A DNA stretch of 64,000 nt, taken from assembly GCF_030816965.1 (NCBI RefSeq), contig NZ_JAUSYQ010000002.1, positions 1,488,001 to 1,552,000 on the forward strand. Direction: 5' to 3'. The position numbers and the translations under genes were made by a program. Below are positions 23,587 to 50,007 of this stretch, piece by piece. This DNA comes from Streptomyces canus (lineage in GTDB: Bacteria; Actinomycetota; Actinomycetes; Streptomycetales; Streptomycetaceae). The notes under the pieces were generated by a model. The model was not told the origin of the DNA and made no database searches. It saw nothing but the letters and a program-made list of their open reading frames with translations. Positions within the stretch are counted from its first letter, which is position 1, and each line of letters starts with the position of its first letter.

Positions 23587-23604
23587 CTGCTCAGTGTTGA
23601 GCAG
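23587..23604. promoter_or_regulatory. Operator A, between hydrolase-PKS operon and isochorismatase gene
   Basis: The perfect palindrome CTGCTCA-GTGT-TGAGCAG lies between two divergent promoters. An identical -10 hexamer, TAGCCT, lies on each side: 23566-23561 on the minus strand and 23626-23631 on the plus strand, each 29.5 to 30.5 bases from the palindrome centre. The centre therefore sits near -41.5 for both promoters, and no -35 box resembling TTGACA is visible. Confidence 0.7.
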
Positions 23605-23678
23605 GGCGGTCTCGCGCAATTCCCTAGCCTTTTCCAGCGGGCCTTTTCGCGGGCCCACACGGAGCGAAAGGGAATTGC

Positions 23679-24284
23679 ATGAGCACCGAGGACGCCTTGG
23701 CAATCGACCCGAAAACCACCGCTCTCGTGCTGGTCGACTTCCAGCGCGGCGTGGTCGAGGGAATGGGAGGTGCCACCGCACTCGGACCGCATACCGCCGA
23801 GGACGCGGTCGGCAGAGCGCGTCGGACCGCGACGGCGCTGCGCGAACTCGGCGGCCTGGTGGTCATGGTCCGCGGGTCGATGGGCCTGTCGGGGGTGCCG
23901 TTTCCCGCGCCGCGCACGGACGCCGGCGTGCCCGCGGGCGTCCCCGTCCCGCCGCACTGGGCCGAGATCGTCCCCCGGCTGACGGACTGCGCCGATCATG
24001 TCGTCACCAAGCACCAGTGGGGCAGTTTCTACGGAACGGACCTGGAGGTGCTGCTGCGTCGCAACGGCGTCACGACGCTGCTGCTCGCCGGGGTCGCGAC
24101 GAATCTCGGCGTCGAGTCCGCCGCCCGTGAGGCCTACGACCGCGGCTTCGAGCAGGTGCTGATCGAGGACGCGACCACGGCGTTCGACGCGGCGGCCCAC
24201 CGCGACTCGGTGTCCCGGGTCATGCCACTGCTCGGCCGGGTGCGCAGCACCGAGCAGGTGCTGGCCGCGTTCGCACGCCACTGA
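23679..24284 (+). CDS. Isochorismatase-fold hydrolase
   Basis: A 201-residue protein of the isochorismatase / cysteine-hydrolase superfamily. Asp20 (LVLVDFQ) and Lys111 (VTKHQW) of the family's catalytic set are present. In the usual GVATxxC position the sequence is GVATNLGVES, so Gly144 replaces the catalytic Cys. Isochorismatases proper (EntB, PhzD) also lack this Cys and hydrolyse a vinyl ether, so that reaction is possible. Many uncharacterised actinobacterial relatives share the Gly, so the substrate stays open. It is transcribed alone, divergently from the PKS operon, from operator A, and its AAAGGGA ribosome site is well placed. A role in aryl starter supply is speculative. Confidence 0.75.
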   Translation: MSTEDALAIDPKTTALVLVDFQRGVVEGMGGATALGPHTAEDAVGRARRTATALRELGGLVVMVRGSMGLSGVPFPAPRTDAGVPAGVPVPPHWAEIVPRLTDCADHVVTKHQWGSFYGTDLEVLLRRNGVTTLLLAGVATNLGVESAAREAYDRGFEQVLIEDATTAFDAAAHRDSVSRVMPLLGRVRSTEQVLAAFARH

Positions 24285-24319
24285 GCGGGTTCCGACGAGG
24301 CGACAACCTCAGCGACGGT

Positions 24320-27070: not shown

Positions 27071-28585
27071 TCAGGGCTGGTCCGGGCGCGCGGCGGTCTC
27101 CCGCAACCGGTCCCGCAGGACCCGCTTGCGCACCTTGCCGTTGGGTGAGAAGGGGAGTTCGGGCAGTAGCTCGATCTGTCGCGGCACCCAATGCGGGGGC
27201 AGCCGGCGCTCGAGGAAGGTGTTCAGGTCGTCGAGAGTGCTGTCCGGAGCGAGCACGACGGCGGCGGCCACCCGCTGCCCGCCGCTCCCGTCCGGGACGC
27301 CGAAGACAGCTGCTTCCAGGACCGCGGGATGCTCGTACACCTCTGCTTCGAGAGCGATGGTCGACAGGATCTCGGTGGGAGTGTGGATGGCGTCCTCGGC
27401 CCGGTCGAACAGGTAGAGGTCGCCGTCGTCGCCGATGTAACCGAGGTCGCCGGTGCGAGTCCAGTCGTCTCCCGGTGGCTGCTGGTTATGCAGGTAGCGG
27501 CGCCGCGGAGCCGCGCACCGCAGCTGGATCCGGCCCAGGTCGCCGTCGGGTACGGGGACATCCTGCTCGTCGACCACGCGGACCTCGGTGCTGGGGGTGG
27601 GGCGTCCCACGGAGAGCGGCCGCGCCGGGTCGTAGGTGTTGACGACGACACCGGGAACCGCTTCGACCTCGGTGTAGGAGCTGTTGAGGCGGGCTCCGGG
27701 GAACATCGCAAGGAGCCGGTCCGCGAGCGCGGGGGCGATGGCTGCGGCGGCCGAGGCGAGGGTGTGCACGGAACTGAGGTCGTACCGTTCGTGGATCTTC
27801 GCGGCGACCATTCGGGCGGCGATCATCGGATTGACCATGACGGAACCGACGCCGTGCTCGGCGATGAGTTCTCCCATTCGCTCCACGTCCCCGGGCCGGG
27901 TCGCGATGAGGGTGGCCCGAAGGGACAGCGCGACGTTGGTGGTGGTCACGCTGGCAGTGGTGCCGAGCTGCATGGGCACGATGAGCGGGCGGGGGTCGCC
28001 GAACTGCGCGAACGCCTCGGGTCCGCGTCCGAAGGTCAGATTGCCGTGCGGGACGCGTACCGGCTTGGAGTCGCCCGTGGTGCCCGACGAGTACAGGAGG
28101 TCACTGATGTCCTCTGGCCCCACCCGCACGTCCACGGGCGACTGTTCGCCGGTCTCCAGTGCGGAGACGGTCCTCACCCAGCAGCCTGGGTCGTCGGGCG
28201 GAGCTATACCGCTGCCGCGGATCATACCGCTGGGGCGGCACTGTGCGAGGCGGCGGGTGATCTCCGCCTTCGGCATGGTGTCGTTGAGATGGATGGCGGT
28301 GCAGCCGGCTTTGAGGATCCCCATGTAGGCCACCGCGTAGTCGACCCAGTCCATTCCCCCGAACAGCAGGGCCACCACGTCACCGCGGGCGGCCCCGGTG
28401 TCGAGGAGTCCGTGTGCGAGGGCGTCCGACCGGGCGTTCCAGCCGGCGTAGGTCATGGTCGCCGCCCCGTCGACCCGCATGACGGTCCGGTCGGCATCCT
28501 CCGACACCCGCATGCGCAGCAGATCGGGGACAGCGAACCCGGAGGTGGTCGTGGTCTCGGTGCTCTTCGCTGACGGTGTACTCAC
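27071..28585 (-). CDS. Acyl-adenylating ligase (AMP-binding), copy 1
   Basis: A 504-residue ANL-superfamily enzyme. The P-loop is YSSGTTGDSKPV, the adenine motif NSSYTEVEA, the A7 motif RTGDLGYIGDDG, and the C-terminal catalytic Lys lies in FSPNGKVRKR. The A8 hinge (RAEDAIHTPTE) departs from the usual form. It should activate a carboxylic acid as acyl-AMP and load it on CoA or a carrier protein; the N-terminal carrier of the synthetase at 42.8-49.9 kb is a candidate acceptor. It heads a four-gene operon. The GTG start lies at the predicted transcription start of the operator-B promoter, so the message looks leaderless. The frame stays open upstream, but that part is non-coding in character. 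Confidence 0.85.
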   Translation of the reverse strand: MSTPSAKSTETTTTSGFAVPDLLRMRVSEDADRTVMRVDGAATMTYAGWNARSDALAHGLLDTGAARGDVVALLFGGMDWVDYAVAYMGILKAGCTAIHLNDTMPKAEITRRLAQCRPSGMIRGSGIAPPDDPGCWVRTVSALETGEQSPVDVRVGPEDISDLLYSSGTTGDSKPVRVPHGNLTFGRGPEAFAQFGDPRPLIVPMQLGTTASVTTTNVALSLRATLIATRPGDVERMGELIAEHGVGSVMVNPMIAARMVAAKIHERYDLSSVHTLASAAAAIAPALADRLLAMFPGARLNSSYTEVEAVPGVVVNTYDPARPLSVGRPTPSTEVRVVDEQDVPVPDGDLGRIQLRCAAPRRRYLHNQQPPGDDWTRTGDLGYIGDDGDLYLFDRAEDAIHTPTEILSTIALEAEVYEHPAVLEAAVFGVPDGSGGQRVAAAVVLAPDSTLDDLNTFLERRLPPHWVPRQIELLPELPFSPNGKVRKRVLRDRLRETAARPDQP

Positions 28586-28618
28586 ACCCCGCAAGCTAGG
28601 CAGTCTCCACCGCCCCGG

Positions 28619-28636
28619 CTGCCCAATTCTGCGCAG
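28619..28636. promoter_or_regulatory. Operator B, between ligase 1 operon and methyltransferase gene
   Basis: CTGCCCA-ATTC-TGCGCAG matches the cluster operator. On the minus strand the -10 is TAGCTT at 28598-28593, 29.5 bases from the centre. On the plus strand the best -10 is GATGCT at 28657-28662. Both predicted start points fall on, or one base before, the start codons (GTG 28585 and ATG 28669), so both messages would be leaderless. Confidence 0.65.
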
Positions 28637-28668
28637 TGGGGCGTGCGTTGAACGGCGATGCTGTGTCC

Positions 28669-29439
28669 ATGACCGACTCGCTTCCGACCAGCGCCCCGGC
28701 CAAGAGCTTCGACCGCATCGCCAAGACGTACGACGCGACCCGTGACGGGGACGCGCGGGGCCGCGCGGTGGCCGCACTCGTCATCCCTCACCTGGTGCCG
28801 GGTCCGGTGCTCGAAGTCGGCATCGGGACCGGTGCCGTCGCCGCCGCGCTGGCCCGGGCGGGCCACCCTGCCCACGGGGTGGACATCTCCGCCGAGATGC
28901 TGCGACAGGCGAGACAACGGCTCGGTGCGCGGATCGTGCGCGGTGACGCGCGGGCCCTGCCGTACGCGCCGGGCTCCGTGCCGAACGTGCTCTGCGCCCA
29001 TGTCCTGCACCTCGTGGGCGACATGGACACGGCGGTGAGGGAGGCGGCACGGGTACTGGCACCGGGTGGTCGGCTGGTGGCCGTGCACGGGGAGACCTAC
29101 GCCGATCCGCAGGCCGATGTGACGGAGGCGATGACGCCCCTGGACCCGTTGCGGGAGCGCCCGGACACCCTCGATGGCCTGGCCCACGCGGCTGGGGCTG
29201 CGGGGTTGCGGACCGTCACGCAGTACGCCCTCGGGCCCAACGAACGCGGCTTCTCGCCCGAGGACTTCGCCGGCGCCATGGAGGCGCGGCAGTACCCGTA
29301 TCTGTGGGACGTGCCCGAGCCGGTCTGGCGCGAACTGGTGGAGCCGGTGATCGCGGCGTTGCGGGCGCTGCCCGAGCCCGCGCGCCCGCGCCCGCTCCAG
29401 TGGTGGTCCCCGCTGAGCGTCTTCGCCAAGGACGACTGA
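28669..29439 (+). CDS. SAM-dependent methyltransferase
   Basis: A 256-residue class I methyltransferase of the Methyltransf_11 type. Motif I is LEVGIGTGAVA, followed by the acidic residue of GVDISAEML and a conserved RVLAPGG post-motif. Its acceptor atom cannot be read from the sequence. It is transcribed alone, divergently from the ligase-1 operon, and ends at a shared terminator with the ferredoxin operon. No ribosome-binding site precedes the ATG at 28669, which agrees with a leaderless message. A longer reading from 28636 is possible but begins upstream of the predicted -10. Confidence 0.82.
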   Translation: MTDSLPTSAPAKSFDRIAKTYDATRDGDARGRAVAALVIPHLVPGPVLEVGIGTGAVAAALARAGHPAHGVDISAEMLRQARQRLGARIVRGDARALPYAPGSVPNVLCAHVLHLVGDMDTAVREAARVLAPGGRLVAVHGETYADPQADVTEAMTPLDPLRERPDTLDGLAHAAGAAGLRTVTQYALGPNERGFSPEDFAGAMEARQYPYLWDVPEPVWRELVEPVIAALRALPEPARPRPLQWWSPLSVFAKDD

Positions 29440-34584: not shown

Positions 34585-35646
34585 TCAGGGCCGGACCGCC
34601 TGGAGCACCTGCCAGGGGCGAGGGCTGGTCGCGCTCGGCACCGGGGTCGTCTTCTCGTAGCGGAACCCGACGCTCTCGATGAGCGTGATGAACTCGTCCT
34701 CGGTCCGCGCCCGGCCGCCGGTGACGGTCTGCAGGCACAGGCTCATGAGGTCGAGGTGATCGGGTTGTCCGCCGGCCGGCCGGGTCCACTCGACCACCAG
34801 CAGCCTGCTGCCGGAGGGGGCGTTGCGCAGGCTGTTGCGCAGGATGCGGGCGCCGTCCTCGTCGCCCCAGTCGCACAGCACCTGTTTGATCAGGTAGAGG
34901 TCGGCGCTGGGCGGGGCGTCCTCGAAGAAGCTGCCGCCGAAGAAGTCGAGACGGTCCGCGACCGGGGAGTCCGCTCGGGCCGCGCGTCCCCGTTCGACGA
35001 CGGCCGGCAGGTCGAACACGGTGCCGTGGGCGTGGGGCGCCCCGGTCAGGATGTGGGAGAGGAGTATGCCCAGGCTGCCGCCGATGTCGACGATCCGGTG
35101 GTAGGGGCCGAAGTCGAAGCCCGCGGCGAGCGCGCGGCCGGCGTCGTTGCTGAGATCTGCCATGGCCTCGGCGTGCCACAGGCGTTCCTCGGGGTGGTGG
35201 TCGTAGTGCTGGTAGAGGTCCTCCCCCCGGTCGTCCTTGGCGGGCCTGCCGGTGAGGATCGTCTCGTGCAGCTTGGCCATGCGGTTCCACATGCCCTCGC
35301 CCATGTTCATCAGGGCCATGGCCGGGAAGGGGCCGGAGCCCCGGGCGAGCGTGCCGCCGAGTTCGGTGAGGGTGTAGGTGCCCTCGCCGTCGGACTCGAC
35401 GAGTCCCAGGATCGCGCAGGCGTCCAGGAAGCGGGTGAAGGTCGCGGGATCCGCGCCGATCGCGACCGCCAGCTCCGCGCTCTTGCGCGGTCCTGAGGCG
35501 AGCCGCTCGGGGATCTCGAACCGTACCGCCGTGGCCACCACCTGGCAGTCCCAGGGACGGAAGACGATCTGGCTGAGGCTGCGTCCGTCCGGCGCGGGGC
35601 TTGCCTGCTGCCCCGTTCCGTGACGTGTGTGCGGTGCGGTCGGCAT
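34585..35646 (-). CDS. O-methyltransferase family protein (acetylserotonin-OMT type) with altered catalytic site
   Basis: A 353-residue protein with an N-terminal dimerisation/winged-helix part (about 30-110) and a C-terminal SAM domain starting at VDIGGSLGILL. In this family the general base is the His of the LHDW motif; here the stretch reads VLCDWGDED, with Cys in that place. Some anthracycline relatives of the DnrK group work without this base or have other chemistry, so activity is possible but may not be ordinary O-methylation. It heads the operon of sugar genes and the ferredoxin, with a GGAGGG ribosome site and its own promoter at operator E. Confidence 0.82.
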   Translation of the reverse strand: MPTAPHTRHGTGQQASPAPDGRSLSQIVFRPWDCQVVATAVRFEIPERLASGPRKSAELAVAIGADPATFTRFLDACAILGLVESDGEGTYTLTELGGTLARGSGPFPAMALMNMGEGMWNRMAKLHETILTGRPAKDDRGEDLYQHYDHHPEERLWHAEAMADLSNDAGRALAAGFDFGPYHRIVDIGGSLGILLSHILTGAPHAHGTVFDLPAVVERGRAARADSPVADRLDFFGGSFFEDAPPSADLYLIKQVLCDWGDEDGARILRNSLRNAPSGSRLLVVEWTRPAGGQPDHLDLMSLCLQTVTGGRARTEDEFITLIESVGFRYEKTTPVPSATSPRPWQVLQAVRP

Positions 35647-38638: not shown

Positions 38639-40189
38639 TCAGAGCGCCCGGTCCGCGCACTCGCGGGCGAGGCGCCACTTCAGGACCTTGCCGAGGTCTC
38701 CTCGCGGCAGCGTGTCGAGCACGACGAGCCGGTCAGGCCGGTCCTCCCGGGCGAGCATGTCCTCCATGCGTTCCCGCAGCCGGCCTTCGTGGACCGGGCC
38801 GTTGACCGTCGCCGCGGCCACGATCTGCCCGCGCCCGTTCCCCTGCTCGTCCGCGGGAGGCAGTGCGAAGACGGCGGCCTCCACGACCTCCGGCAGCCAC
38901 AACAGGGTGTTCTCCAGTTCCGAGGAGGAGAGGGTGTGGCCGTCCCTGACGAGCACGTGGGCCGCCCGGTCGAAGAAGTGCACCTTCCCTTCCCCGTCGA
39001 TGTGGCCGAGGTCCCCGGTCCGTGTCCAGCCGTCCGGACGGAAGGTATGCGCCTCCTCCTCGGGCAGCGCCACGTACGAGCGGCGGGGCGCGGGATGGCG
39101 CAGGTGAATCCAGCCCCGCTCCCCCGCGCCGACGGGCGACCCCGTCTCGTCGGTAACCATGACCTCGGTGCCGTCCGCGGGCGAGCCCAGGCTGACGGCG
39201 GAGCGTGCGGAGGGGGTGAGGCCCGACAAGTAGCCGGTCGGGAGAGGGTTGTTGAGGAAGGCCGGCGCCGATTCGGTGGAGCCGTATCCGGCGAGGATCC
39301 GCGCCTGGGGCAGCACACGGTGCAGCCGTGCCACCGAGGCCGGGGCCACGGGTCCCGAGCCCACCATGAGGGCGGCCAGCCCCGCGAGGTCGTGCTGGCG
39401 GGTGATGTCGGTGGCGGCCCAATGCCGCACGGCATGGGGCGGCAGAACCACGGTCGCCGTCCCGAGACCGGCGGCGGCCTCGGCGGCCGTCTCGGGGTCA
39501 GGGGCGCTCAGCACGTGGACGGTGGCCGGTGAGGTCAACGCCATCATGAGGGCGCTGTGGGCGGCGTTGGTGCCGACCGGCACCGCGCACAGCACGTGCG
39601 GCGCGTCCGCGGTGAACCTGCCGCGCGCGGCACGCCCGTGGGTGAGGTTGGCGTGGGTGACCGCGACGGGCTTGGCCCGCCCGGTGGTGGTTCCCGAGGT
39701 GTGGAGGATGTCCGCGACGTCGCCGGGGAACGCCTCGTCCGCCGGCGCGGCGCCGCCGCTGCGCCGCGTCAGCTCCCCGAGGGTGTCGGTCCAGCCGCCG
39801 GGGCAGCTCTCGTGCGCGCCGGACGGACGGATGAGCCCGACGACACCGCAATGGGCCATCCTGCGTCCGGCCTCCCCCGCGGGAAGTCCGGGCGGCAGCG
39901 GCACGGCCGCGGCGCCCAGGCGGTGCAGGGCCAGGGTGGCGACGGCATGGTCCCACCAGCCGCCGGGCGGGCAGAGCACTGCGACCCGGTCGCCGCGGCG
40001 GACGCCACGGGCGTGCAGCCCGCGGGCGAGCGACGTGGCGGCGGTGTCCCAGTCACCGAGGGTGAGGGATCGCCGGCCGTCGACGACCAGGGCGACATGG
40101 CGGGGCCGCTCACGGATGTACTCGCCCACGAGACGGGGAACAGTGCTGTGGGAGCGGGGGTCGCGGGCGGTGGCGGGAGGTGACGTCAT
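38639..40189 (-). CDS. Acyl-adenylating ligase (AMP-binding), copy 2
   Basis: A 516-residue ANL-superfamily ligase. The P-loop is HTSGTTTGRAKPV, the adenine motif GYGSTESAP, the A7 motif RTGDLGHIDGEG, and the catalytic Lys lies in RGDLGKVLKW. It shares uncommon features with ligase 1, such as an aromatic/basic insert before A7 (RRSYV here, RRRYL there) and a divergent hinge (RAAHVLVRDG), so the two may be paralogs. It would activate a starter or side-chain acid. The gene stands alone; its ATG lies about 2 bases after the predicted start of transcription, so it is probably leaderless. Confidence 0.85.
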   Translation of the reverse strand: MTSPPATARDPRSHSTVPRLVGEYIRERPRHVALVVDGRRSLTLGDWDTAATSLARGLHARGVRRGDRVAVLCPPGGWWDHAVATLALHRLGAAAVPLPPGLPAGEAGRRMAHCGVVGLIRPSGAHESCPGGWTDTLGELTRRSGGAAPADEAFPGDVADILHTSGTTTGRAKPVAVTHANLTHGRAARGRFTADAPHVLCAVPVGTNAAHSALMMALTSPATVHVLSAPDPETAAEAAAGLGTATVVLPPHAVRHWAATDITRQHDLAGLAALMVGSGPVAPASVARLHRVLPQARILAGYGSTESAPAFLNNPLPTGYLSGLTPSARSAVSLGSPADGTEVMVTDETGSPVGAGERGWIHLRHPAPRRSYVALPEEEAHTFRPDGWTRTGDLGHIDGEGKVHFFDRAAHVLVRDGHTLSSSELENTLLWLPEVVEAAVFALPPADEQGNGRGQIVAAATVNGPVHEGRLRERMEDMLAREDRPDRLVVLDTLPRGDLGKVLKWRLARECADRAL

Positions 40190-40223
40190 GGCCGCCGACC
40201 CTAGATTTCGCGGCTCCGCCGCA

Positions 40224-40241
40224 CTGCGCAGGACTGAGCAC
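40224..40241. promoter_or_regulatory. Operator F, between ligase 2 and MFS exporter
   Basis: CTGCGCA-GGAC-TGAGCAC fits the cluster operator with one mismatch. On the minus strand the -10 TAGGGT at 40203-40198 starts 29.5 bases from the centre. On the plus strand CATACT at 40263-40268 starts 30.5 bases from it. Confidence 0.65.
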
Positions 40242-40283
40242 CGAAACGCCGGCGCCCCCAGCCATACTCACCCGATCACGCTA

Positions 40284-40383: not shown

Positions 40384-41898
40384 GTGACAGCAACTGGTGC
40401 AGGCACCACCGCAGAGACGCCCGAACCGGGAGCCGAAGCGCCCCCCGCCGCGCGCCATATCATCACAGCGGGGGCGTTGCTCGCCCTGATCCTTTCGTCG
40501 ATGGACGTCTCCATCGTCGGAACGGCCCTTCCCCGGATGGCGGCCGACCTCGGAGCGCTCAGCCTCTATTCGTGGGTCGGCGTGAGTTACGGCATGGCCG
40601 CCGCGGTGGTCATCCCCATCGGGGGGAAACTCGGTGACCTGTTCGGCCGCAAACCGCTGCTGATGGCGGGGCTCGGCGGGTTCGTCCTCGCCTCCCTGCT
40701 GGGCGCCCTCGCCCAGAACATGGCGCTCCTCATCGTGGCGCGCACGGTACAGGGCGTCTGCGCGGGCCTGCTCACCGCCAACATCTTCACTCTCATCGGT
40801 GAGATCTACACCGCCGAGCGCCGGGCGCAGATCCAGGGTGTCTTCTTCAGCGTCGCCGGTCTCGGCATGGTCGCCGGCCCGCCCCTGGGCGGTGTCATCA
40901 CGGACAACTGGGGCTGGCCCTGGGTCTTCTGGATCAATGTGCCGCTGGCCGCTCTCGCGCTGCTCGCCGTGACCGCCGTACCGTTCAAGCAGGTGGGGGG
41001 CCGCTGGCAGGACATCGACGTCCTCGGCGTCCTGACCCTGAGCGCCGGCCTCGTCCCGCTGTTGTTCGGGTTGTCGCTGACCGGTGACGGGCACGCGTGG
41101 GGGTCCCCGGAGGTGCTGGGCCCCGTCCTCGGCGGTCTGATGGTGCTGGGTGTGTTCTGCCTGGTGGAGTCCCGGTACGCCCGCCAACCGCTCGTCCCCT
41201 TCGAGCTGTTCAAGGTCAACCAGGTGGCCGTCCTCGTGGTCGTCTCCTTCCTCTCGGCCGTCGCGATGATGGGCACGACCTTCTACGTACCGCTGCTCTA
41301 CCAGGGTGTCCTCGGAGTCAGTGCCACCTACTCGGGAAGCCTGCTGATCCCGCTCGCCGTCGCCATGATGGTGGTGCCGCCCCTCACCGGTAAGTACCTG
41401 CCGTCCGTGCCGCACTACCGCTATCTGGGAGCAGCGGCGTTCGCCCTGCTCGTCGTGGGTCTGGTGATGCTGTCCCGGGTGCGGCCCGGCAGCGGGGACT
41501 GGATGCCGCTGCTCGCCATGGTGATCGTCGGTATCGGCGTCGGCATCATCTTCCCCCTCACCACCACGGTGGTGCAGAGCGCGGTGCCGCTGGAGCTCCT
41601 CGGCGTCGGTACGAGTCAGATCCAGTTCTGGCGGACCTTCGCCTCGCCCGTGTCGATCGCCGTCCTCGGCACCCTGCTGAGCACGCGCGCCGGCGGCCTG
41701 GGATCGGGCGGCGGCAGCGGCCCCTCCCCCGAGCGGCTGGCCGACGGCCTGAGCGACGTGTTCATGGTCGGCGCGGTGCTCGCGGCGATCGGGCTGGTCA
41801 TCACCTTGTTCCTCAAGGAGATTCCTCTGCGTGGCGCACCGGCGAAGCCGCGCCCGGCGGTGGAGTCCGAGGTCGCCGCGTCGAAGGACGCCACCTGA
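40384..41898 (+). CDS. MFS drug exporter, 14-helix (DHA2) type
   Basis: A 504-residue protein with about 14 hydrophobic segments. Motif A between helices 2 and 3 is GGKLGDLFGRKP, and helix 1 carries the D-x-S-I-V-G-T-A-L-P pattern of drug:H+ antiporters. It most likely exports the cluster product. The GTG start has GGAGGCACC just upstream. The gene ends only 11 bases before the converging DH gene, so no terminator fits between them. Promoter control looks double: the cluster operator upstream and a separate palindrome in the leader. Confidence 0.9.
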   Translation: MTATGAGTTAETPEPGAEAPPAARHIITAGALLALILSSMDVSIVGTALPRMAADLGALSLYSWVGVSYGMAAAVVIPIGGKLGDLFGRKPLLMAGLGGFVLASLLGALAQNMALLIVARTVQGVCAGLLTANIFTLIGEIYTAERRAQIQGVFFSVAGLGMVAGPPLGGVITDNWGWPWVFWINVPLAALALLAVTAVPFKQVGGRWQDIDVLGVLTLSAGLVPLLFGLSLTGDGHAWGSPEVLGPVLGGLMVLGVFCLVESRYARQPLVPFELFKVNQVAVLVVVSFLSAVAMMGTTFYVPLLYQGVLGVSATYSGSLLIPLAVAMMVVPPLTGKYLPSVPHYRYLGAAAFALLVVGLVMLSRVRPGSGDWMPLLAMVIVGIGVGIIFPLTTTVVQSAVPLELLGVGTSQIQFWRTFASPVSIAVLGTLLSTRAGGLGSGGGSGPSPERLADGLSDVFMVGAVLAAIGLVITLFLKEIPLRGAPAKPRPAVESEVAASKDAT

Positions 41899-41909: not shown

Positions 41910-42824
41910 CTACCCGACCGGTCGGGCCCCGGTCCTGCGCACCACGGTCTCCTCCAAAAGCCGGTCGATCAGACCGGCTTCGCGGATGCGCTTGCAGGTG
42001 AGCCGGTCGAACCGGGCGGCGGGGCGGCGCTTCTCGTCGTAGAGCAGCAGGTCCGAGTCGAACAGTTCACCGGACGGCGTCAACGTCTCCCGTCGCGGCA
42101 CGTGGACCGTGAAGGGGCCCGGCAGGGGGCGCGGGGCGCGGAACCGCTCGATGAACATCGGGATGAAGGGCTCGGCGATCGAGGTGCGCGTCTGCGCGTA
42201 GGCCACGATGGTCGCCGCGTCGAGCTTGGCAGGGTGCATCTGGAACCACCGCTCGCTATACGGATCGGGCTCGGCCAGGGCGAGTTCCGCCAGTAGCTCT
42301 CCCTGTCCGGTGGTGAGCGTGCCGGTGCAGGTCATCGCGGGGCCGTGCCGGATATTGCGGGCCCGGGTGTGGGCGTACATCTCGGCCATCGTGCCGACGC
42401 GTGGCGCGCCGTGTCCGACGGTCGCGCACACCGCCTCGGGACACGGGGGGAACTCCTCCCCTCCCGGCTGCGGCGTGAGGTGCAGCTCGGCGCGGAAGTT
42501 CTCCCGCCACGGCCCGAAGGGCTCCGGTCCGTCCAGCCAGCGGCTCTCCCCCACGACCTGCGATGGGCCGAACCTGAGCCTGATGTCGCGGTCGAAGCCC
42601 TCAGCCGTGGCGATCGCCTCGGCGAAGACGATGTTGCGCAGTTCGGCTGAGGCAGGGGGGATGCCTCGTGCGCGCAGGACCCGCAGCACCATGTCGAGGA
42701 AAGTGACGCCCGGCAGGACCGAGACGCCGTGCACCCTGTGGGCGCGGGGGATGAAGTCGGTGTCCCGCAGTAGGAGACGGCACTGCTCGGGGAGTCCGGC
42801 CGCCGGGTGGCCCGCCACGGTCAC
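41910..42824 (-). CDS. Free-standing polyketide dehydratase (DH) domain protein
   Basis: A 304-residue protein that consists of one PKS-type DH double hot-dog. The first catalytic motif is HRVHGVSVLPG (H-x3-G-x4-P) near residue 33, and the second is the FQMHPAKLDAATIV stretch with its Asp near residue 205. It resembles the DH at the start of PKS B in sequence and order of motifs. Its GTG start overlaps the synthetase stop (GTGA), so it is coupled to the KS-ended synthetase. It is probably a DH domain split off a module KS | DH | ACP; the ACP would be the one at the N-terminus of PKS A. What it dehydrates is unclear because the unit before that KS is a thiazole carboxylate. Confidence 0.85.
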   Translation of the reverse strand: MTVAGHPAAGLPEQCRLLLRDTDFIPRAHRVHGVSVLPGVTFLDMVLRVLRARGIPPASAELRNIVFAEAIATAEGFDRDIRLRFGPSQVVGESRWLDGPEPFGPWRENFRAELHLTPQPGGEEFPPCPEAVCATVGHGAPRVGTMAEMYAHTRARNIRHGPAMTCTGTLTTGQGELLAELALAEPDPYSERWFQMHPAKLDAATIVAYAQTRTSIAEPFIPMFIERFRAPRPLPGPFTVHVPRRETLTPSGELFDSDLLLYDEKRRPAARFDRLTCKRIREAGLIDRLLEETVVRRTGARPVG

Positions 42825-45800
42825 CGCTCTTCTTCCGCGCCGGGGCCGCGCAGCACCACGTGGGCGTACGATCCGGCGGCGCCGACGGCGTTGACGAGGG
42901 CGCGCCGGACCCCCGGGTCGCCGCCTCTCGCCCGCCAGTTGGTGAGCCGGTCAGCGATCCGCAGCGGCAGCCCGTCCCAGTCGACAAGGGGGGTGCGGTG
43001 CTCGGCGACGAGAGTGGGCGCGATCGACCGATGACGCAACTGGAGCAGCACCTTGAGAAGTTGGGAGAGGGCGGACGCCCCTTCGAGGTGGCCGATGTTG
43101 GGTTTGACGGTGCCGATGAGGGTCGGGGACGAGGCGAACACGTCGGCCAGCGCCTCCAGTTCGGCCACGTCGGCGAGGGCGGCACCGGCGGCCGCGCACT
43201 CGACGTAACCGATGTCTGCGGGCGTGGCCCCGGCGCGGTCGAGCACGGTGCGCAGGGACGCCGCGAGGGCGTTCGGCGCGGGGCTGCCGTAGCGGCCGCG
43301 GCCGCCGTAGTGCCCGACCCAGGTCGCCTCCAAGACGCCGTGCACGACGTCCCCCGCTCGCCGGGCCGGTTCGGCCGGGCGCAGCAGAACGGCCGCGACC
43401 CCCTCCCCCGGGCACCAGCCGCCGCTGTCCGCGGCGTATGCGCGCACCGGGGCGGCGGAGTCGGTGAGCAGTCCGGCCGCGGACAGCGCGGCCAGGTGGT
43501 ACGGGTGCAGGATCAGGTTGGCGGCCCCGACCACGGCGGCGTCGCACTCGCCGCGCCGCAGGCTCTCCGCCGCGAGGTGGAGGGCCGTGAGGGAGGAGGA
43601 GCAGGAGGTGTCGACCGCGAGGCTCGGTCCTTCGAACCCGAAGAAGTGCGAGATCCTGGCGGGCAGGTCGGAGGCGAGCGCGGCGCTGCTGGCCTGTGCC
43701 CCGCCGGCCCACGCGTCCGCGCCCACGAGCTGCTGGTCGTGCCACATGGTGGCCGTGAACACGCCGACGCGCGGAGCTTCTGCGGCCAGTGAGGCGGGCG
43801 TGTGGCCGCTGTCCTCCAGGCAGTTCCAGACGGTCTCCAGCAACAGGCGTGCCTGCGGGTCGAGGGTCGCGGCCTCGGCCGGCGACAGGCGGAACCGACG
43901 GGCGTCGAACCGGTCGGGCCGCTGCAGGAAGCCCCCCGAGGTCACGCCCGGTAGGCCGGGCTCCGCGGCTGCCAGTGCCTCCCTGCGGTCCTCGGGTACG
44001 AGCCCGGTGGCGCAGTGCCCCGAGCTGAGCCGGCGCCAGTAGGCGCGGGTGTTCTCCGCGCCGGGGAACCTTCCCGCCATTCCGGAGACGACGACCTGGG
44101 CGGTGTCGTCCTTGCGCCGTCCGACCGGGGCCGGGCCGAGTACGGCTACCCGCTTCCCCGTCGGCACGACAGCCGCTTCGCCCGTCCACCCGGCGGTGAA
44201 GGGGGCCCGGTCGGCCCGCTGGTGCGCGACGGGTCCGCCCATCAAGGCGTGCAGGAACACATGGCCGTCGTCCAGCGCGAACTGGTCCCTGACGGTGTCG
44301 AACGTCATCGTACCGACGGGGCATAGCCCGACCCGGCAGCCGGCCTGTCCCGTCATGAGGAGCTGTCCGATGTAACCGGCCTCCAGAAGCAGGAAGTTCT
44401 CGGCGGCCTCCCCGTACAGCGGGGTGATGCCCTTCGTCTGGCCGATGAGATAGATCCCGAATCCGGAGCGGTCGAAAACCGGCCGGTTGTAGGGGAAGTG
44501 GACGTTCCTGGTGATCCGGGGCGCCGCGTTCACCAGGTGCAGCCGGCGGTCCACGGGGTGGTGGTAGTAGATCCCCTCGGGTATTCCCTCGACGCCCCCC
44601 TCCCGAATGTGGAGATAGGTCTGGACGGCGTAGGTGTCCCCCGCGGAGGCGTGCAGTCGCCGGTGCGCACCGCTTCCCCCGGAGTCGCTCAGCAGGGCCA
44701 ACAGCCGGGCCAGGGACTCGGAGGGCAATGGCTCGTCGAGGAAGTCCCGCCTGCTGCCCCGCCACGTGTACCAAACGGGGTCCACGTCGTGTCCCGGCAG
44801 TTCGACGGCCGGCTCACGCACGTCGGCCGGGCGCAGGTTCCACCTGGCGGCCTTGAACGCGTCCCGCTCCTCGGGCGAGAACAGATCGACTTGCTCCGGT
44901 GCAGGTCCGGGGCGCGGCGCCGCGCCCCGCGTACCGCTCGCCGGGCCGGTTGCAGGTGCCCTGTCGGTGCCCGGTCCCGTAGCCGTCGACGTCTTTGCAG
45001 GATCCGCCCGTCCGATGCGTTGCCCGACCACGCGGGCGATCCCGGCCACCGTCGGATCGGCCACCAGGGCCGCCACGGGAACTCGCTGTCCGTATCGGCG
45101 CAGCAGCCGGGCGGAGACCTGCACCAGGGTGAAGGAGGTGACCCCTTGGTCCCACAGGTCCTCGGCGGTGTCGATCGCCGGCACACCGAGGACCTCCGCG
45201 AAGACCGCGGCGATCTCCTCCACCAACGGCGGCTCTACGGGCGGACCCTCCTCGGGCTCCGGCGGTTCAGTCGTCCGCTCCGGAACCGGCAGGGGCAGGG
45301 CCGAGCGATCGAGCTTGCCGTGTGCGGTGGCCGGGAAGGACGGTACGAACACCACGAAGTTGGGCACCATGTAGGACGGGAGCGCCTTCGCGGCACGCTC
45401 ACGCAGCGCGCCCTCGTCGCCGCTCTCCTCGTCGGCGGGGATGACGTGCGCCACCAGGAGTTGGTCTCCCCCCTGTTCGCGCACCGACACCACCACGTCC
45501 CGGACCGAGCTGTCCGCGCGCAGTACGTGTTCGACCTCGGCGAGTTCCACTCGCTGGCCCCGGATCTTGACCTGGCCGTCGGTCCGCCCCCGGATGTGCA
45601 GGCAGCCGTCCGCGTCCCACAGAGCCCGGTCCCCGGTACGGAACATCCGGGCGCCGGGTTCGTCGGTGTACGGATCGGGCGGGAAGGACGCCATGGTGAG
45701 TTCGGGGTCTCCCGCATAGCCGAGTGCCAGACAGCGGCCGGCGGTGTACAGGTCCCCCTCGGTCCCCGGCGGGCACGGTCGCAGCCGGGAGTCGAGGACG

Positions 45801-48800
45801 TAGTGACGGCAGCGATCGATGGGACGTCCGTAGGGAATGGCACGCCATTCGGGGTCGATGTCCCGCACAGGGAAGACGTTGGACCAGACGGTGGTCTCGG
45901 TCGGTCCGCCCAGCGCGATCGTCCGCACGCCGGGGAAGGCGGCCGTCAGCCGCCCCGGCAACGACAGCGGGATGAAGTCACCGCTCAGCATCACCAGTCG
46001 CAGCCGCCCGGCGTCGGCGTCCGGGAGGAACGGGGTGAGCTGGTGCAGTGTGGTGGGGGCGGAGTTCCAGATCGTCACCGGTTCGGTCATCAGCACGTCG
46101 GCGAGCAATTGGGGGTCGCGCTGTTCCTCCTCGTCGGCAAGGTAGATCGAGGCACCGTGCCCGAGGAGCCCGAACAGGTCGAACACTGACAGATCGAAGC
46201 CGAACGAGGTGAGGGCCAGCCCGGTGTCGTGCGGTACGAGGTCGAAGTCCCGGGCACAGAAGGCGATCAGGTTGTGCACCGACCGGTGGGCGACCTCCAC
46301 GCCCTTGGGCGTCCCTGTGCTGCCCGAGGTGAACAGAACGTATGCCGTGTCGTCCGCGCAGGCCACCGCCGCGGGATTCTCGTCCGCCCGGGGATGGGTT
46401 TCGGCGTCGGGTCCCGGGTCGACGACGACGATGCGGCGGACGGGGTGCGCCATGGGCGGGTCCAGCGGGACGGTGCCCGGCGCGGTCAGCAGGGTGCGTA
46501 CGCCCGCCGCACCGAGCATCGCCGACACCCGGGCGGCGGGCAGCGCGGTGTCGACGGGCAGGTAGGCCGCGCCCGCCTTCAACACGCCGTACAGCGCGGC
46601 CACGAGGTCCGGACCGCGGTCCATGCGGACGGCGACCACGTCCCCCGCTTCGACCCCTTCCGCGCGCAGTCGCCATGCCACGGTGTTGGCGCGGCGGTTC
46701 AGCTCCCCGTAACCGACCGTGCTCCCCGAACGGCCCCGCACGGCCACGGCCGCGGGCGAGACCCGCGCCCAGTGTTCGAGCGGCAGATGTATGGGTCCTT
46801 CGAGGGCCGGGGCGGGGGAAGCCTCGGTGACGTTCCAGCCGTACAGGACGGCCTCGCGCTCCGCGCCCGTGGCCACAACGACCGCCGCGTCCGCGTTCGC
46901 CCGCTCCTCCTCCTCGGCTGCCTCGGCCGACCAGGCGCGCACGCTTGCCTCGAAGAGGGCGAACAGCTTCTCGTCGAGCCCGCCCCCGAGCACGCCGGGT
47001 GCCAGGTCCCACGCGTAGGAGAGGGTGTCGGCCTCGGCAACGCAGACGACGTCGAGATCGCAACCGGGCGTACTGGTCAGCCACTTGCCCTGAGTCACCC
47101 CTTCCGGCAGCGGGTGGCGGGTCAGGTCCACGAGTGCCGTCAGCACCACCGGATAGGAGAGGGTGACCGAACGGTCCCGCAGCGCCCTGCGGCTCAGTTC
47201 GGCGAGCCCGGAGGCGCTCCGGTGAGCCAGGTCGGCGGTGATCTGCAGACGGGCTGACCGGGCTGCCTCTTGGAGCGGTGTTCCCCGGGGCGGGGCGGAC
47301 AGCCAGTCGAGGAAGGACTCCTCCGCGGGACGGTGGCGTTCCGACTGTTCCGGCCACAGGACGACCGACAACGCGTACGGGTCCGTGATCTCCTCCGAGA
47401 GCGCGGCGGTGAGGGCAGCGAACACGATGTCGTCGACCGTCACACCGCGCACGGCGGCGCGCCTGGCAAACTCCCGGTATCCGGTGAACGTGCCGGACAG
47501 CCGGCGCCGGCCACTGCGTCCGACGACTTCCGTGCGTGGCAGCACAGGACCCGGCGGCACGGTCGCCAGCCGTTCACGCCAGTGCGCGGCCGCTCTGCCG
47601 CGTCGACCACCGCGTACGTACCGGGCCGTGTCCGGTGGGGCGGTGGCGAGTGCGGGCACGGCCGGGCCGTCCCCTTCGGCGTACAACCGCCACAGTTCGC
47701 GAAACAGGAGGTGGATGGAGCGGCCGTCACCGACGAGCAGGTCCATCGCGCAGTGCACGGTGTGCTTCCCCGTGGGGTCGCGGGTCACCCGTACGTCGAT
47801 GAGCGGCCAGCGGCCGAGAGGGAAGGGGCGGGAGGTCATCTCGGTGCGGATACGGGCGAGGTCCGCCTCGTTCGCGTCGGCGTCGGCGTCGAGGTCGATG
47901 ACGGGGATGTGCAGCGTGCCCGCTCCCCGGGGGCGGACGCGCAGCCGCGCCCCGTCCGTCTGCGTCCGCAGAGCGTCGTGGCGCTCGACGAGCCGTCGCA
48001 GGGCTCTGTCGAGTCGTACGAGGTCGAGCGCCTCAACCTCGTACGACTGGTAGCACTGACAGCCCTCGGCCTCCGCCGCGTCTTCCGTGACCGTCCGGCC
48101 GACCATGTACGCCTGTTGGAGATCGCGCGGCGGCAGCTCGCTCCACTGGCCACTGCCTTCCGTGCCCTTCCGCTCGTCCGTCGCGGCCGGGCCGAGCGCG
48201 GACAGGGCCGTATGGAACGCCGCGAAGGCGATGTCGGCGGTCCCGGTGGCGAATCGTGTGTCATCCACGTCCCAGCGGAAGCGCAGACCGCCGTCCTGCT
48301 CCCACATCTGATGGTCGAGGGCGACCCCGCTGGTCTGGCTGACCCCGTAGACCGTGTCGGCGCCGAAGCCGCCCGCCACACCCTCCCCCGGCCCGACGCC
48401 GATCAGGCTGGTGAACACAACGGGCAGGGCGGCGGGTTGGCGTCCGGTGGCAGCGCGTACGGCCCGCGCCGCCTCCACACCGGACACGCCGCCGTGCCGC
48501 AACTGTTCGCCCAGCAGGCGGTTGGCCGCGCGCGCGGCCTCGGCCGGCGAGGGCTGATCCATGTAGGTGACGTCATGAACGAGCGTCGAGGTGAAGGGCC
48601 CGACCAGTTCGTCCGCGGCGCGCGGCAGCCGCGGCCGGTCACTACTCGTGAGCAGAAGGGTGAAGGGGGCCTTGGCCCCGGCCCTCACCAGCGACTCGGC
48701 GAAGCAAGTGAGTACCAGGGCCGTGGGCGACACGTCCCACTCGTCAGCCAGCCGCGTCAGTTGCCGCCACGCTGCCGCGTCCAGCATGCCGTCGAGGGGA

Positions 48801-49855
48801 CGGCGCGTTCGCGGCATCTGCTCGTGAGTGTCGCCGGCGCCCGAAGCGGCCGCGGGCTCCAGAACGATGTCAGGAGGGCCAGAGGCCACTTCGCCCAGCC
48901 GCACCCAGTAGTCCAGGTCCTCCGCGTGCCGTGGCCCTGTCCGTTCGGCGAGGAGCGATCGGACACAGGACGCGACCGTCACGGCGTCGTCCGCCCGCTC
49001 GTCCCTGACATCGACCACCCCTCGGCCTTCGTACTCCGCCTTCCATTGCTGAAGGACGAGGGCGAATCCGTGCGCGTCGGTGACCACGGTGTCCAGGCTG
49101 AGGTGGATGATGCCGACTCCGCCGGGCAGCAGGGACACCTCGACGGCGAACAGCGGCCAGGCATCGGGCCGGTAGCAGCGGTGCGACAACCGCTCCCGTA
49201 CGTCCGCGACGGACCGGGCCGCCGTCGCCTCGTCGAGTTCCGTGAGGTCGTGGACCGGGAACTGCCAGGGCGGCGGATCGGCCAGTGTGCGCTGCGTGCC
49301 GTCCTGTCCGACGACGGTACGCAGCATGGCGTGACGCCGCACCACCGCGAGCCATGCCTTCTCCAGCCGGGCGGGGTCTGGACCGGCGACCCGGAACTCG
49401 CGGTAGAGGTGGCAGCCGGCAGGATCGGCCGCGCCTTCCTGCTTGGCCACGACGTATGCCTCTTGCAGGGATGTCAGGCTGAAGTCGGCCTCGTCATCGC
49501 CGAGTCGAGGCACCGACTGAGGCTCTCGGGAATCCTCGCGTCTCTCTACCTGACCGACCAGCTCCTGAAGGTCCTTCAGGTCCGCTTCGGCAAGCGTCAC
49601 GATGTCGAGGTCGTCGACGCCGAACGCGCGCCGCATCCCCAGCAGCAGGCGGGTGAGAGCCAGAGACGAGAGCCCCCAGGCCCGCAAGCTGCCCTCGGGC
49701 AGTTCGGGCGCCTGGTCCGGGCGTACCTCGGCGAGCAGCCCCCTCAGTTCCGGGGCAACCGGCTGACTGTCGGTCCGCGGCGGGCCCCCCGCATCCGGCG
49801 CGCCCGATCCGTGCCCGGCCTGCGAGGTCTCCTCGTCCCAACTGTCGGACTCCAC
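42821..49855 (-). CDS. NRPS-PKS hybrid: carrier-Cy-Cy-A(Cys)-PCP-Ox-KS0
   Basis: About 2344 residues. In order along the gene: an N-terminal carrier (near 49760-49535; WGLSSLAL), Cy1 (49490-48170; DTVVTD), Cy2 (48140-46860; DLLVGD), an A domain (46800-45240; FTSGSTGTPKG, GGPTETT), PCP (45220-45010; GVTSF), a SagB-like flavin oxidase (44900-44200) and a KS (44150-42850; DTSCSSSL). The A-domain pocket read from motifs is D-L-F-N-M-S-L-V-W, close to the cysteine code D-L-Y-N-L-S-L-I-W. The set should make a thiazole from Cys on the PCP. In the KS, the HGTGT motif reads CAAAG, so the His needed for decarboxylative extension is missing (KS0). The GTG at 49855 has GGGGAGA 4 to 5 bases upstream and is preferred; an in-frame GTG at 49942 lacks such a site. 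Confidence 0.93.
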   Translation of the reverse strand: MESDSWDEETSQAGHGSGAPDAGGPPRTDSQPVAPELRGLLAEVRPDQAPELPEGSLRAWGLSSLALTRLLLGMRRAFGVDDLDIVTLAEADLKDLQELVGQVERREDSREPQSVPRLGDDEADFSLTSLQEAYVVAKQEGAADPAGCHLYREFRVAGPDPARLEKAWLAVVRRHAMLRTVVGQDGTQRTLADPPPWQFPVHDLTELDEATAARSVADVRERLSHRCYRPDAWPLFAVEVSLLPGGVGIIHLSLDTVVTDAHGFALVLQQWKAEYEGRGVVDVRDERADDAVTVASCVRSLLAERTGPRHAEDLDYWVRLGEVASGPPDIVLEPAAASGAGDTHEQMPRTRRPLDGMLDAAAWRQLTRLADEWDVSPTALVLTCFAESLVRAGAKAPFTLLLTSSDRPRLPRAADELVGPFTSTLVHDVTYMDQPSPAEAARAANRLLGEQLRHGGVSGVEAARAVRAATGRQPAALPVVFTSLIGVGPGEGVAGGFGADTVYGVSQTSGVALDHQMWEQDGGLRFRWDVDDTRFATGTADIAFAAFHTALSALGPAATDERKGTEGSGQWSELPPRDLQQAYMVGRTVTEDAAEAEGCQCYQSYEVEALDLVRLDRALRRLVERHDALRTQTDGARLRVRPRGAGTLHIPVIDLDADADANEADLARIRTEMTSRPFPLGRWPLIDVRVTRDPTGKHTVHCAMDLLVGDGRSIHLLFRELWRLYAEGDGPAVPALATAPPDTARYVRGGRRGRAAAHWRERLATVPPGPVLPRTEVVGRSGRRRLSGTFTGYREFARRAAVRGVTVDDIVFAALTAALSEEITDPYALSVVLWPEQSERHRPAEESFLDWLSAPPRGTPLQEAARSARLQITADLAHRSASGLAELSRRALRDRSVTLSYPVVLTALVDLTRHPLPEGVTQGKWLTSTPGCDLDVVCVAEADTLSYAWDLAPGVLGGGLDEKLFALFEASVRAWSAEAAEEEERANADAAVVVATGAEREAVLYGWNVTEASPAPALEGPIHLPLEHWARVSPAAVAVRGRSGSTVGYGELNRRANTVAWRLRAEGVEAGDVVAVRMDRGPDLVAALYGVLKAGAAYLPVDTALPAARVSAMLGAAGVRTLLTAPGTVPLDPPMAHPVRRIVVVDPGPDAETHPRADENPAAVACADDTAYVLFTSGSTGTPKGVEVAHRSVHNLIAFCARDFDLVPHDTGLALTSFGFDLSVFDLFGLLGHGASIYLADEEEQRDPQLLADVLMTEPVTIWNSAPTTLHQLTPFLPDADAGRLRLVMLSGDFIPLSLPGRLTAAFPGVRTIALGGPTETTVWSNVFPVRDIDPEWRAIPYGRPIDRCRHYVLDSRLRPCPPGTEGDLYTAGRCLALGYAGDPELTMASFPPDPYTDEPGARMFRTGDRALWDADGCLHIRGRTDGQVKIRGQRVELAEVEHVLRADSSVRDVVVSVREQGGDQLLVAHVIPADEESGDEGALRERAAKALPSYMVPNFVVFVPSFPATAHGKLDRSALPLPVPERTTEPPEPEEGPPVEPPLVEEIAAVFAEVLGVPAIDTAEDLWDQGVTSFTLVQVSARLLRRYGQRVPVAALVADPTVAGIARVVGQRIGRADPAKTSTATGPGTDRAPATGPASGTRGAAPRPGPAPEQVDLFSPEERDAFKAARWNLRPADVREPAVELPGHDVDPVWYTWRGSRRDFLDEPLPSESLARLLALLSDSGGSGAHRRLHASAGDTYAVQTYLHIREGGVEGIPEGIYYHHPVDRRLHLVNAAPRITRNVHFPYNRPVFDRSGFGIYLIGQTKGITPLYGEAAENFLLLEAGYIGQLLMTGQAGCRVGLCPVGTMTFDTVRDQFALDDGHVFLHALMGGPVAHQRADRAPFTAGWTGEAAVVPTGKRVAVLGPAPVGRRKDDTAQVVVSGMAGRFPGAENTRAYWRRLSSGHCATGLVPEDRREALAAAEPGLPGVTSGGFLQRPDRFDARRFRLSPAEAATLDPQARLLLETVWNCLEDSGHTPASLAAEAPRVGVFTATMWHDQQLVGADAWAGGAQASSAALASDLPARISHFFGFEGPSLAVDTSCSSSLTALHLAAESLRRGECDAAVVGAANLILHPYHLAALSAAGLLTDSAAPVRAYAADSGGWCPGEGVAAVLLRPAEPARRAGDVVHGVLEATWVGHYGGRGRYGSPAPNALAASLRTVLDRAGATPADIGYVECAAAGAALADVAELEALADVFASSPTLIGTVKPNIGHLEGASALSQLLKVLLQLRHRSIAPTLVAEHRTPLVDWDGLPLRIADRLTNWRARGGDPGVRRALVNAVGAAGSYAHVVLRGPGAEEER

Positions 49856-49989
49856 GGTCTCTCCCCACGACGCGAAACGGGCGGGACGTGCCACACCCGG
49901 TTTCCGGCCCCGCCCACCGGCTGGGCCTGGACTGCCCTCCACGGGGATGGCTGGTCAGCCCTCAGTACGCCACCGCGCACGGCGGATCA

Positions 49990-50007
49990 CCGCCCACTTT
50001 TGAGCAG
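49990..50007. promoter_or_regulatory. Operator H, synthetase promoter and right edge of the regulon
   Basis: CCGCCCA-CTTT-TGAGCAG fits the cluster operator. The minus-strand hexamer CGTACT at 49969-49964 starts 29.5 bases from the centre, though it is a weaker -10 than the others. No matching site was seen to the right of this one. Confidence 0.55.

Follow-up and report, generated by a model that had tools for sequence, protein, structure and literature searches.

Gene cluster and palindromic sites

The DNA considered here, a stretch of 64,000 nucleotides (the window; G000:C2:1488001-1552000) in the 10.66 Mb genome of Streptomyces canus, carries a biosynthetic gene cluster of the leinamycin family in which 18-bp palindromes stand before most of the transcription units. 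A preliminary description of the window listed seven of these 18-mers, at 23587, 28619, 35707, 37006, 37033, 40224 and 49990, and attributed them to a single pathway-specific regulator encoded outside it. All seven are found at those coordinates. A candidate gene for such a regulator, a member of the Crp/Fnr family, lies 11.3 kb to the left of the window behind the best copy of the palindrome, and the palindrome recurs around relatives of this gene elsewhere. In total 124 kb of the own region was scanned; negative coordinates denote positions left of the window. Gene starts were predicted with a simple codon-usage caller trained on the S. canus genome. Scores and ranks refer to a matrix built from 29 foreign intergenic sites only, and pattern scans were compared with a reversed-pattern control.

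Site A (CTGCTCAGTGTTGAGCAG, 23587..23604; matrix score 28.4, rank 2 in the 124 kb) is an exact palindrome and a predicted operator for both directions. TAGCCT boxes, as predicted -10 elements, are situated 20 bases past it on either side: at 23561..23566 on the minus strand, for the polyketide synthase (PKS) operon (1..23521, minus), which is predicted to be driven by site A and encodes an abhydrolase-fold protein, a PKS and a giant PKS, and at 23625..23630 on the plus strand, for an isochorismatase-family gene (23679..24284, plus). Site B (CTGCCCAATTCTGCGCAG, 28619..28636; rank 3) is likewise predicted to serve both directions. It is followed after 20 bases by TAGCTT (28593..28598, minus) for the ligase-1 operon, the first gene of which is acyl-CoA ligase-like (27071..28585, minus), and at the same distance by the -10-like GATGCT (28657..28662, plus) for a methyltransferase gene (28669..29439, plus). 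Site C (CCGCTCAAGATTGCGCGT, 35707..35724, minus; score 12.0, rank 7) has one degenerate half and precedes the methylation/sugar operon, which starts with an O-methyltransferase gene (34585..35541, minus) and has TAGCGT at 35681..35686 (minus). Sites D and E share one intergenic gap: site D (37006..37023, minus; rank 6), with TAGCGT at 36980..36985 (minus), belongs to a cytochrome P450 gene (35730..36938, minus), and site E (37033..37050, plus; score 10.8, rank 10), with the -10-like GACACT at 37071..37076 (plus), to the antiporter gene, encoding a Na+/H+ exchanger-family protein (37123..38466, plus). Site F (CTGCGCAGGACTGAGCAC, 40224..40241; rank 5), the third predicted operator for both directions, has TAGGGT at 40198..40203 (minus) for AMP-binding ligase 2 (38639..40129, minus) and the -10-like CATACT at 40263..40268 (plus, offset 21) for a major facilitator superfamily (MFS) pump (40501..41898, plus). 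Site G (CCGCCCACTTTTGAGCAG, 49990..50007, minus; rank 4) is located upstream of the nonribosomal peptide synthetase (NRPS) gene (42821..49855, minus), the product of which combines condensation, adenylation, carrier, nitroreductase-type oxidase and ketosynthase (KS) domains.

The consensus of the preliminary description, C(T/C)GCNCA-N4-TG(A/C)GCAG, is matched exactly by three of the seven sites (23587, 28619 and 49990), with one mismatch by two (37033 and 40224) and with two mismatches by the remaining two (35707 and 37006). Nine of the ten transcription units ascribed to these sites have NANNNT at 20 or 21 bases, the exception being the NRPS unit (49990). The statement that the intact half-site is the promoter-proximal one holds for sites C, D and E, and fails at 49990, where the half farther from the NRPS gene is the better preserved.

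Two features place the cluster in the leinamycin family: a DUF-SH didomain, and a trans-acyltransferase (trans-AT) PKS with the LnmK/HMG-CoA synthase set for beta-branching. The C-terminal part of the giant PKS has LPG_synthase_C-like and Beta_elim_lyase domains, a pair that we read as the DUF-SH didomain from the domain matches, followed by a hydrolase domain. The DUF-SH didomain is described as a mark of leinamycin-type clusters, though not an exclusive one (PMC8479088). The PKS operon runs on to the left of the window with LnmK-like, acyl carrier protein, HMG-CoA synthase and KS-like genes. The region as a whole encodes an AT-PfaD fusion, two HMG-CoA synthases, an LnmK-like protein (5e-88 to PDB 4hzo), a halogenase and a P450. 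Two DUF6039 proteins (PF19505, function unknown) are also encoded in the cluster (window 25584-26534 and L007:1826-2740); this family is apparently common to nine stretches. To the right of the cluster lies a gene pair for a histidine kinase and a NarL-type response regulator (56362-58157), and a TetR-family gene is found at 51459-51983, adjoined at 52187 by a gene for a 496-aa protein that is transporter-like by eye. To the left of the cluster, gene calls at L006:7067-10871 (window -32933 to -29129) resemble a urease operon, as judged by eye from their first residues.

The Crp/Fnr-type regulator gene

Because the regulator gene (229 codons; L007:8002-8691, minus; window -11998 to -11309) begins 11.3 kb to the left of the window, it escaped the preliminary description. 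Its product consists of a cNMP_binding domain (PF00027, 6e-15) followed by an HTH_Crp_2 domain (PF13545, 3.6e-12). An AlphaFold2 model (pLDDT 89.8) had GlxR (3r6s) as best Foldseek match (E 1.6e-19, TM 0.81), and both by sequence and by predicted fold GlxR and the Crp protein of Mycobacterium tuberculosis (Mtb CRP) are the nearest solved relatives. It was the sole protein of its genome to match at E 1e-30 among the 7 scored of 22 candidates. The sensor domain was inspected for cAMP residues in an alignment of 121 sequences (the own protein plus the best 120 of 258 matches, the first of these being the own protein once more). The phosphate-binding cassette has its Gly-Glu in 121/121 and an Arg in 117/121; compared with GlxR the loop is shorter by one residue, in an alignment that is itself ambiguous by one residue.

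A further palindrome, at C2:1477847 (L007:9847-9864, window -10153), heads two minus-strand genes, encoding a PhyH-type chlorinating halogenase (TIGR01762, L007:8706-9656) and then the regulator. This is the top-scoring copy in the 124 kb (rank 1), as judged by the foreign-trained matrix. A weak additional predicted operator, absent from the earlier list, was found at window -9956 (L007:10044-10061) with CACTCT at offset 20, upstream of a PIG-L-type deacetylase gene. Sites at -14590 and -23922 score 5-6 bits and have correctly spaced -10 boxes; they may extend the regulon leftwards. A 4-bit site at -10101 probably represents chance.

Specificity of the palindrome in the S. canus genome

With at most two mismatches the consensus gave 30 strand-matches in the window, a count in which one palindrome can score twice, versus 13.96 +/- 4.39 in shuffled sequence; none of 100 shuffles reached 30. 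Exact copies were found at five places in the genome. Four of these are in the cluster (23587, 28619, 49990 and C2:1477847, 10 kb left of the window), and the fifth (C2:8791201) is intragenic and lacks TANNNT at both 20 and 21 bases. The form CTGCNCA-N4-TGNGCAG occurs at four places, three of them in this cluster, against none for the reversed control. The consensus with one mismatch showed no specificity genome-wide (172 strand matches versus 153 for the reversed control) and was dropped as a genome scan for being too loose. According to the preliminary description, a motif occurring equally often inside genes and before unrelated genes would refute the single-regulator idea. This was followed up by the whole-genome pattern search and by running the matrix over 400 kb drawn from 20 other locations in the genome. 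The strict forms proved to be concentrated in the cluster, and the idea was not refuted. As a separate observation, CTGCTCAN4TGAGCAG occurs at 6 and 10 places in two class genomes, both of one other genus, that have no regulator match (G012 and G035). Nine of the 10 places listed are identical (CTGCTCATGCATGAGCAG), so that these copies probably belong to an unrelated repeated palindrome.

Scanned over the own 124 kb, the foreign matrix placed the regulator site and the seven earlier sites at ranks 1-7 and 10, while ranks 8 and 9 are intragenic. One contig, C108 of genome G249, had been chosen for its motif copies and not via a regulator; a matrix without it (27 sites) left the ranks unchanged except for a swap of D and F. 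Symmetric column permutations of the matrix (200) gave on average 0.29 matches at 14 bits or more (maximum 2), versus 6 for the real matrix, and means of 3.8, 1.7 and 0.7 at 8, 10 and 12 bits, versus 12, 10 and 6. The 400 kb from elsewhere in the genome contained no match at 14 bits or more, 3 at 12 or more and 9 at 10 or more (7/9 intragenic). Sites C (12.0) and E (10.8) thus score within the background, and both depend on their -10 spacing.

This spacing was included in a composite site, defined as an intergenic match of at least 3 bits with NANNNT at 20 or 21 bases and a gene start 15-320 bases downstream. Composite sites were found at 15 promoters in the own 124 kb, whereas the 400 kb from elsewhere yielded 3, none of which reached 4 bits. 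Four genomes that contributed no training sites (G545, G490, G558 and G403) each have between four and six intergenic composite sites scoring at least 8 bits in the ~100 kb around the regulator gene.

Recurrence of regulator and palindrome

Relatives of the regulator, sharing 37-55% identity and a near-invariant recognition helix, were found in 21 other genome neighbourhoods. A protein-based search yielded eight loci, of which seven have one to three motif copies at no more than one mismatch. The eighth, L017 (33% identity, from an Actinomycetaceae metagenome-assembled genome), has no motif copy in a stretch where the gene caller gave only 3 genes. L011, a near copy of L010, did not enter the matrix, the spacing analysis or the de novo count; L017 was excluded from the family counts, and G507, whose contig coordinates are identical to those of the L016 genome, was entered once.

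Carriers of the regulator number 4 in 394 class genomes and at least 14 in 392 genus genomes, the own genome and G243 being in both sets. Strict CTGCTCA-N4-TGAGCAG is present in 4/4 class carriers (E 1e-30) versus 33/390 non-carriers (Fisher p 7e-5); in G249 the strict motif is located on another contig than the regulator. In the 22 regulator genomes (185 Mb) CTGCNCA-N4-TGNGCAG occurs at 59 places, 27 of which, in 17/22 genomes, lie within 60 kb of the regulator gene (0.84 expected), a limit chosen after the list was seen. The remaining 32 are chance-like, compared with 25 for the reversed control in the same genomes. In the foreign stretches (L011 and G249 C108 included), 32/35 sites at no more than one mismatch are intergenic. 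The corresponding figure for CTGCNCA-N4-TGNGCAG at 29 loci examined from the class genomes (37 genomes with a strict match, mostly regulator-free) is 13/32, and TANNNT at 20 or 21 bases accompanies 2 of these 32 places, both in regulator genomes.

The palindrome also emerged from a de novo count in 100 kb of intergenic DNA from 21 foreign stretches, a set that excludes the own genome, L011 and L017. Two kinds of palindrome were enumerated: those whose six-base halves match exactly (gaps 0-12) and those whose seven-base halves contain one free position (gaps 0-10). TGCTCA-N4-TGAGCA came out on top with 14 copies in 9 stretches, and the form with CTGCNCA halves and the N4 gap had 16 copies in 13 stretches; the best unrelated palindrome occurred in 5 stretches. 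Without G249 C108 these figures were 13 copies in 8 stretches and 14 copies in 12 stretches, in unchanged order.

A DUF-SH-like match is present in 19/22 regulator genomes, in 15 on the regulator's own contig. In the genus set at least 13 genomes have a DUF-SH match (that of G523 a weak one of 30%) and at least 12 have both this and the regulator; these counts, like that of the regulator, are lower bounds because per genome the 3 best DUF-SH and up to seven regulator candidates were scored. The regulator occurs without a DUF-SH match in G533, G705 and G095. Since two of these, G533 and G095, do have the composite operator, use of the LnmO-type switch may extend beyond the leinamycin family. 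Apart from the regulator itself, the families most shared among the neighbourhoods are ligase-, HMG-CoA synthase- and P450-like (named via own-cluster members or by eye). A Streptomyces specialis contig (L069, from G507) harbours two LnmO-type regulators in one neighbourhood (14720-15280 and 17121-17777).

Promoter architecture

Intergenic sites with a gene start within 400 bases were treated as oriented promoters, 43 of which derive from the 29 foreign sites and 15 from the own cluster; the own 15 include 37006 plus and 37033 minus, probably artefacts of two sites in one gap. TANNNT occurs 13 times in the 43 foreign promoters, in all cases at offset 20 or 21 past the palindrome and nowhere else in offsets 0-43. 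In the own cluster seven copies are at 20 or 21 and one is at 35. NANNNT is found at 20 or 21 in 35/43 foreign promoters (32/40 without G249 C108), against a mean of 1.0 and a maximum of 2 for other offset pairs, and in 10/15 own promoters, against a mean of 0.53 and a maximum of 2.

When the first base of the -10 box is taken as -12, the palindrome spans -50 to -33 and its centre falls at -41.5 (offset 20) or -42.5 (offset 21). Class II activators, Crp among them, bind centred at -41.5. The consensus of the -35 element is TTGACA, and in the 20 promoters with TANNNT at 20 or 21 no hexamer at a spacer of 16-18 has more than 3/6 matches to it. A fixed distance between operator and -10 box together with a poor -35 element, the transcription starts being inferred from the -10 boxes, corresponds to class II Crp-type promoters. 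The fixed spacing and the missing -35 element argue for activation rather than repression.

Predicted operator recognition

The recognition helix of the regulator contains RSRVGL where canonical Crp has RETVGR, a departure from canonical Crp recognition. In E. coli CRP, Arg180 contacts G2 of the half-site T1G2T3G4A5, and Arg185 together with Glu181 reads the G4:C4 pair, as described in PMC11253593. When the half-site C-T-G-C-N-C-A is aligned to this by dyad distance, T1 and G2 are kept and the degenerate position corresponds to G4. All 121 aligned sequences keep the Arg180 equivalent. In place of Glu181 there is a Ser in 120 of them, and the Arg185 position is occupied by Tyr, Phe, Leu or His; in the more distant G095 protein these two positions hold Thr and Gln. 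Loss of the two residues thus parallels loss of the base preference at G4, which is consistent with, but no proof of, the residue loss explaining the degenerate operator position.

Compared with the Crp/GlxR family (E. coli CRP, Corynebacterium glutamicum GlxR and Mtb CRP), the regulator shares the domain order, the fold, the Arg180 equivalent and the class II site position. It differs in its operator, CTGCNCA-N4-TGNGCAG instead of TGTGA-N6-TCACA, in having narrow, cluster-bound targets instead of a global regulon, and at the positions of Glu181, almost invariably Ser, and of Arg185, almost invariably Tyr, Phe, Leu or His.

Relation to leinamycin and other known systems

Genome G545 encodes an LnmK-like protein with 316/319 residues identical to crystallised PDB 4hzn, which we take to be the leinamycin LnmK. 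Its genes follow each other on one strand in the order 4428 aa, 7351 aa, 319, 79, 416, 267, regulator (227 aa), 82 and 516, presumably lnmI to lnmQ by gene names and order. The LnmK identity and this gene order indicate that G545 almost certainly carries the leinamycin cluster, in which case its regulator is LnmO. The best composite site of G545 (CTGCTCAGAAGTGAGCAG, 28.6 bits, TAGGGT at offset 20) is upstream of the gene for the 4428-aa protein and thus heads the operon holding the regulator gene. LnmO is listed in PMC7105598 as a positive Crp/Fnr regulator of leinamycin biosynthesis, with a yield entry of 300% upon overexpression and a citation of Huang et al. 2016.

LnmO and the S. canus regulator are both Crp/Fnr-family proteins with the helix core TTRSR in a leinamycin-type cluster, and the G545 regulator operon has the same composite operator. 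They differ in that the two proteins share 46% identity and in gene position: the G545 regulator gene follows K-L-M-N-like genes, between lnmN- and lnmP-like genes, whereas the own gene follows the halogenase gene in a separate operon. No description of a CTGCNCA-N4-TGNGCAG operator or of an LnmO operator was found in the CC-licensed PMC literature; the original LnmO paper, outside that search, may have one.

The own cluster also resembles the largimycin (lrg) cluster of Streptomyces argillaceus, a member of the leinamycin family for which a halogenase and two HMG-CoA synthases have been described (PMC9396626). These components are shared by the own cluster, the lrg cluster being compared by its published description. 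A likeness exists as well to the lux-box of LuxR-type regulators. The lux-box is a 20-bp palindrome that starts with CTG, ends with CAG and lies near -42.5, and the own palindrome shares these ends and this position. The LuxR/NarL-type gene at 57630 is common to only 2 other neighbourhoods (LuxR families as such were not searched there).

Proposed mechanism and alternative explanations

We consider it very probable, from sequence comparison, that CTGCTCA-N4-TGAGCAG is the operator of the LnmO-type Crp/Fnr regulator encoded 11.3 kb to the left, which would switch the cluster on from near -41.5. A dimer of the regulator would bind the palindrome centred near this position and recruit RNA polymerase to the -10 boxes 20 or 21 bases downstream, so that the cluster genes would be turned on together. 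The operon of halogenase and regulator would be among the targets, resulting in positive autoregulation. Binding by this particular protein, activation instead of repression, and positive autoregulation are all three inferred.

Several observations weigh against this proposal. Site G has a good operator score, yet no -10 box at 20 or 21 bases in either direction, and in G403 the site with the highest score (28.3 bits) is not followed by a -10 box under the composite definition. Sites C and E taken alone score like background (compare the 9 matches of 10 bits or more in 400 kb elsewhere), and single permuted matrices reach 22, 11 and 6 matches at 8, 10 and 12 bits, equal to or above the real counts. 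No site precedes the left AT-PfaD operon, the transcription of which would depend on read-through from the regulator operon. Five of the 22 genomes have no exact copy near the regulator gene, and in G705 (regulator 47% identity) there is no convincing site in 60 kb and no DUF-SH match. The 60 kb limit itself was set post hoc. Furthermore, the neighbourhoods share ancestry, so that the counts are not independent and the probabilities are guides only. Finally, a half-site near -35 would suit a repressor too.

This last point leads to the most probable of the alternatives, itself improbable, in which the Crp/Fnr protein acts from the palindrome as a repressor and occludes the -35 region until it is released by a signal. 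In promoters with a -10 box at 20 or 21 bases the palindrome indeed overlaps the -35 region, where repressors also act. A repressor needs no fixed spacing, yet those promoters that have a -10 box have it at 20 or 21 bases, and a good -35 element is missing from them. In addition, LnmO, with 46% identity and the same helix, is listed as positive (PMC7105598).

Somewhat less probable still is that another DNA-binding protein recognizes the palindrome and that the Crp-type gene is a mere neighbour. Candidates are present in the region (the NarL-type response regulator at 57630 and the TetR protein at 51459), and the binder could also be encoded elsewhere. The preliminary description had suggested a LuxR- or NarL-type regulator. 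The NarL-type response regulator (57630-58157) is disfavoured as binder, since its relatives were found in only 2 other neighbourhoods; for the two TetR genes and one LysR gene tested the number was 0. The neighbourhoods were picked by the Crp-type regulator alone (G249 C108 excepted), and the motif was still there, while in the class-wide draw regulator and motif co-occur. Among the 30 most widely shared families listed, the regulator is the only one that looks DNA-binding (judged by eye, one member per family and its first 50 residues).

That the sites are targets of a housekeeping Crp in global carbon control is highly unlikely: the protein superfamily and the class II geometry would fit, but the operator is not TGTGA-N6-TCACA, the helix differs from that of GlxR at the reading residues and 3/4 strict genome sites are in the cluster. 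Equally unlikely is a chance pattern in GC-rich DNA; the lack of genome-wide enrichment at one mismatch would agree with it, but it is refuted by the composite sites (15 in 124 kb versus 3 in 400 kb, all below 4 bits) and by the recurrence of the motif in other genomes.

Implications

Leinamycin-family clusters make antitumour compounds. They can be silent in culture, as reported for the largimycins (PMC13200230). The lrg cluster was silent under standard conditions, and its product was obtained by overexpressing the cluster activator lrgR2 (PMC9396626; PMC13200230). If the proposed switch is correct, the S. canus regulator switches on its own operon, and its expression should activate the cluster. 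The composite site (palindrome, 20-21 bases, NANNNT) would then tell which genes belong to the cluster, and one motif search would delimit such clusters and name the gene that wakes them. It would also add a DNA target to LnmO, the entry of which in PMC7105598 is by its yield effect only.

More generally, it appears likely from these comparisons that one regulator-operator code serves almost the whole leinamycin family. The LnmO-type branch of Crp proteins would have lost the Glu/Arg pair that reads the second G of TGTGA, would read CTGCNCA-N4-TGNGCAG instead, and would act as the dedicated class II on-switch of these clusters across actinobacterial families, the leinamycin cluster itself included. 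This would represent a natural case of a Crp-type recognition helix changing its DNA code.

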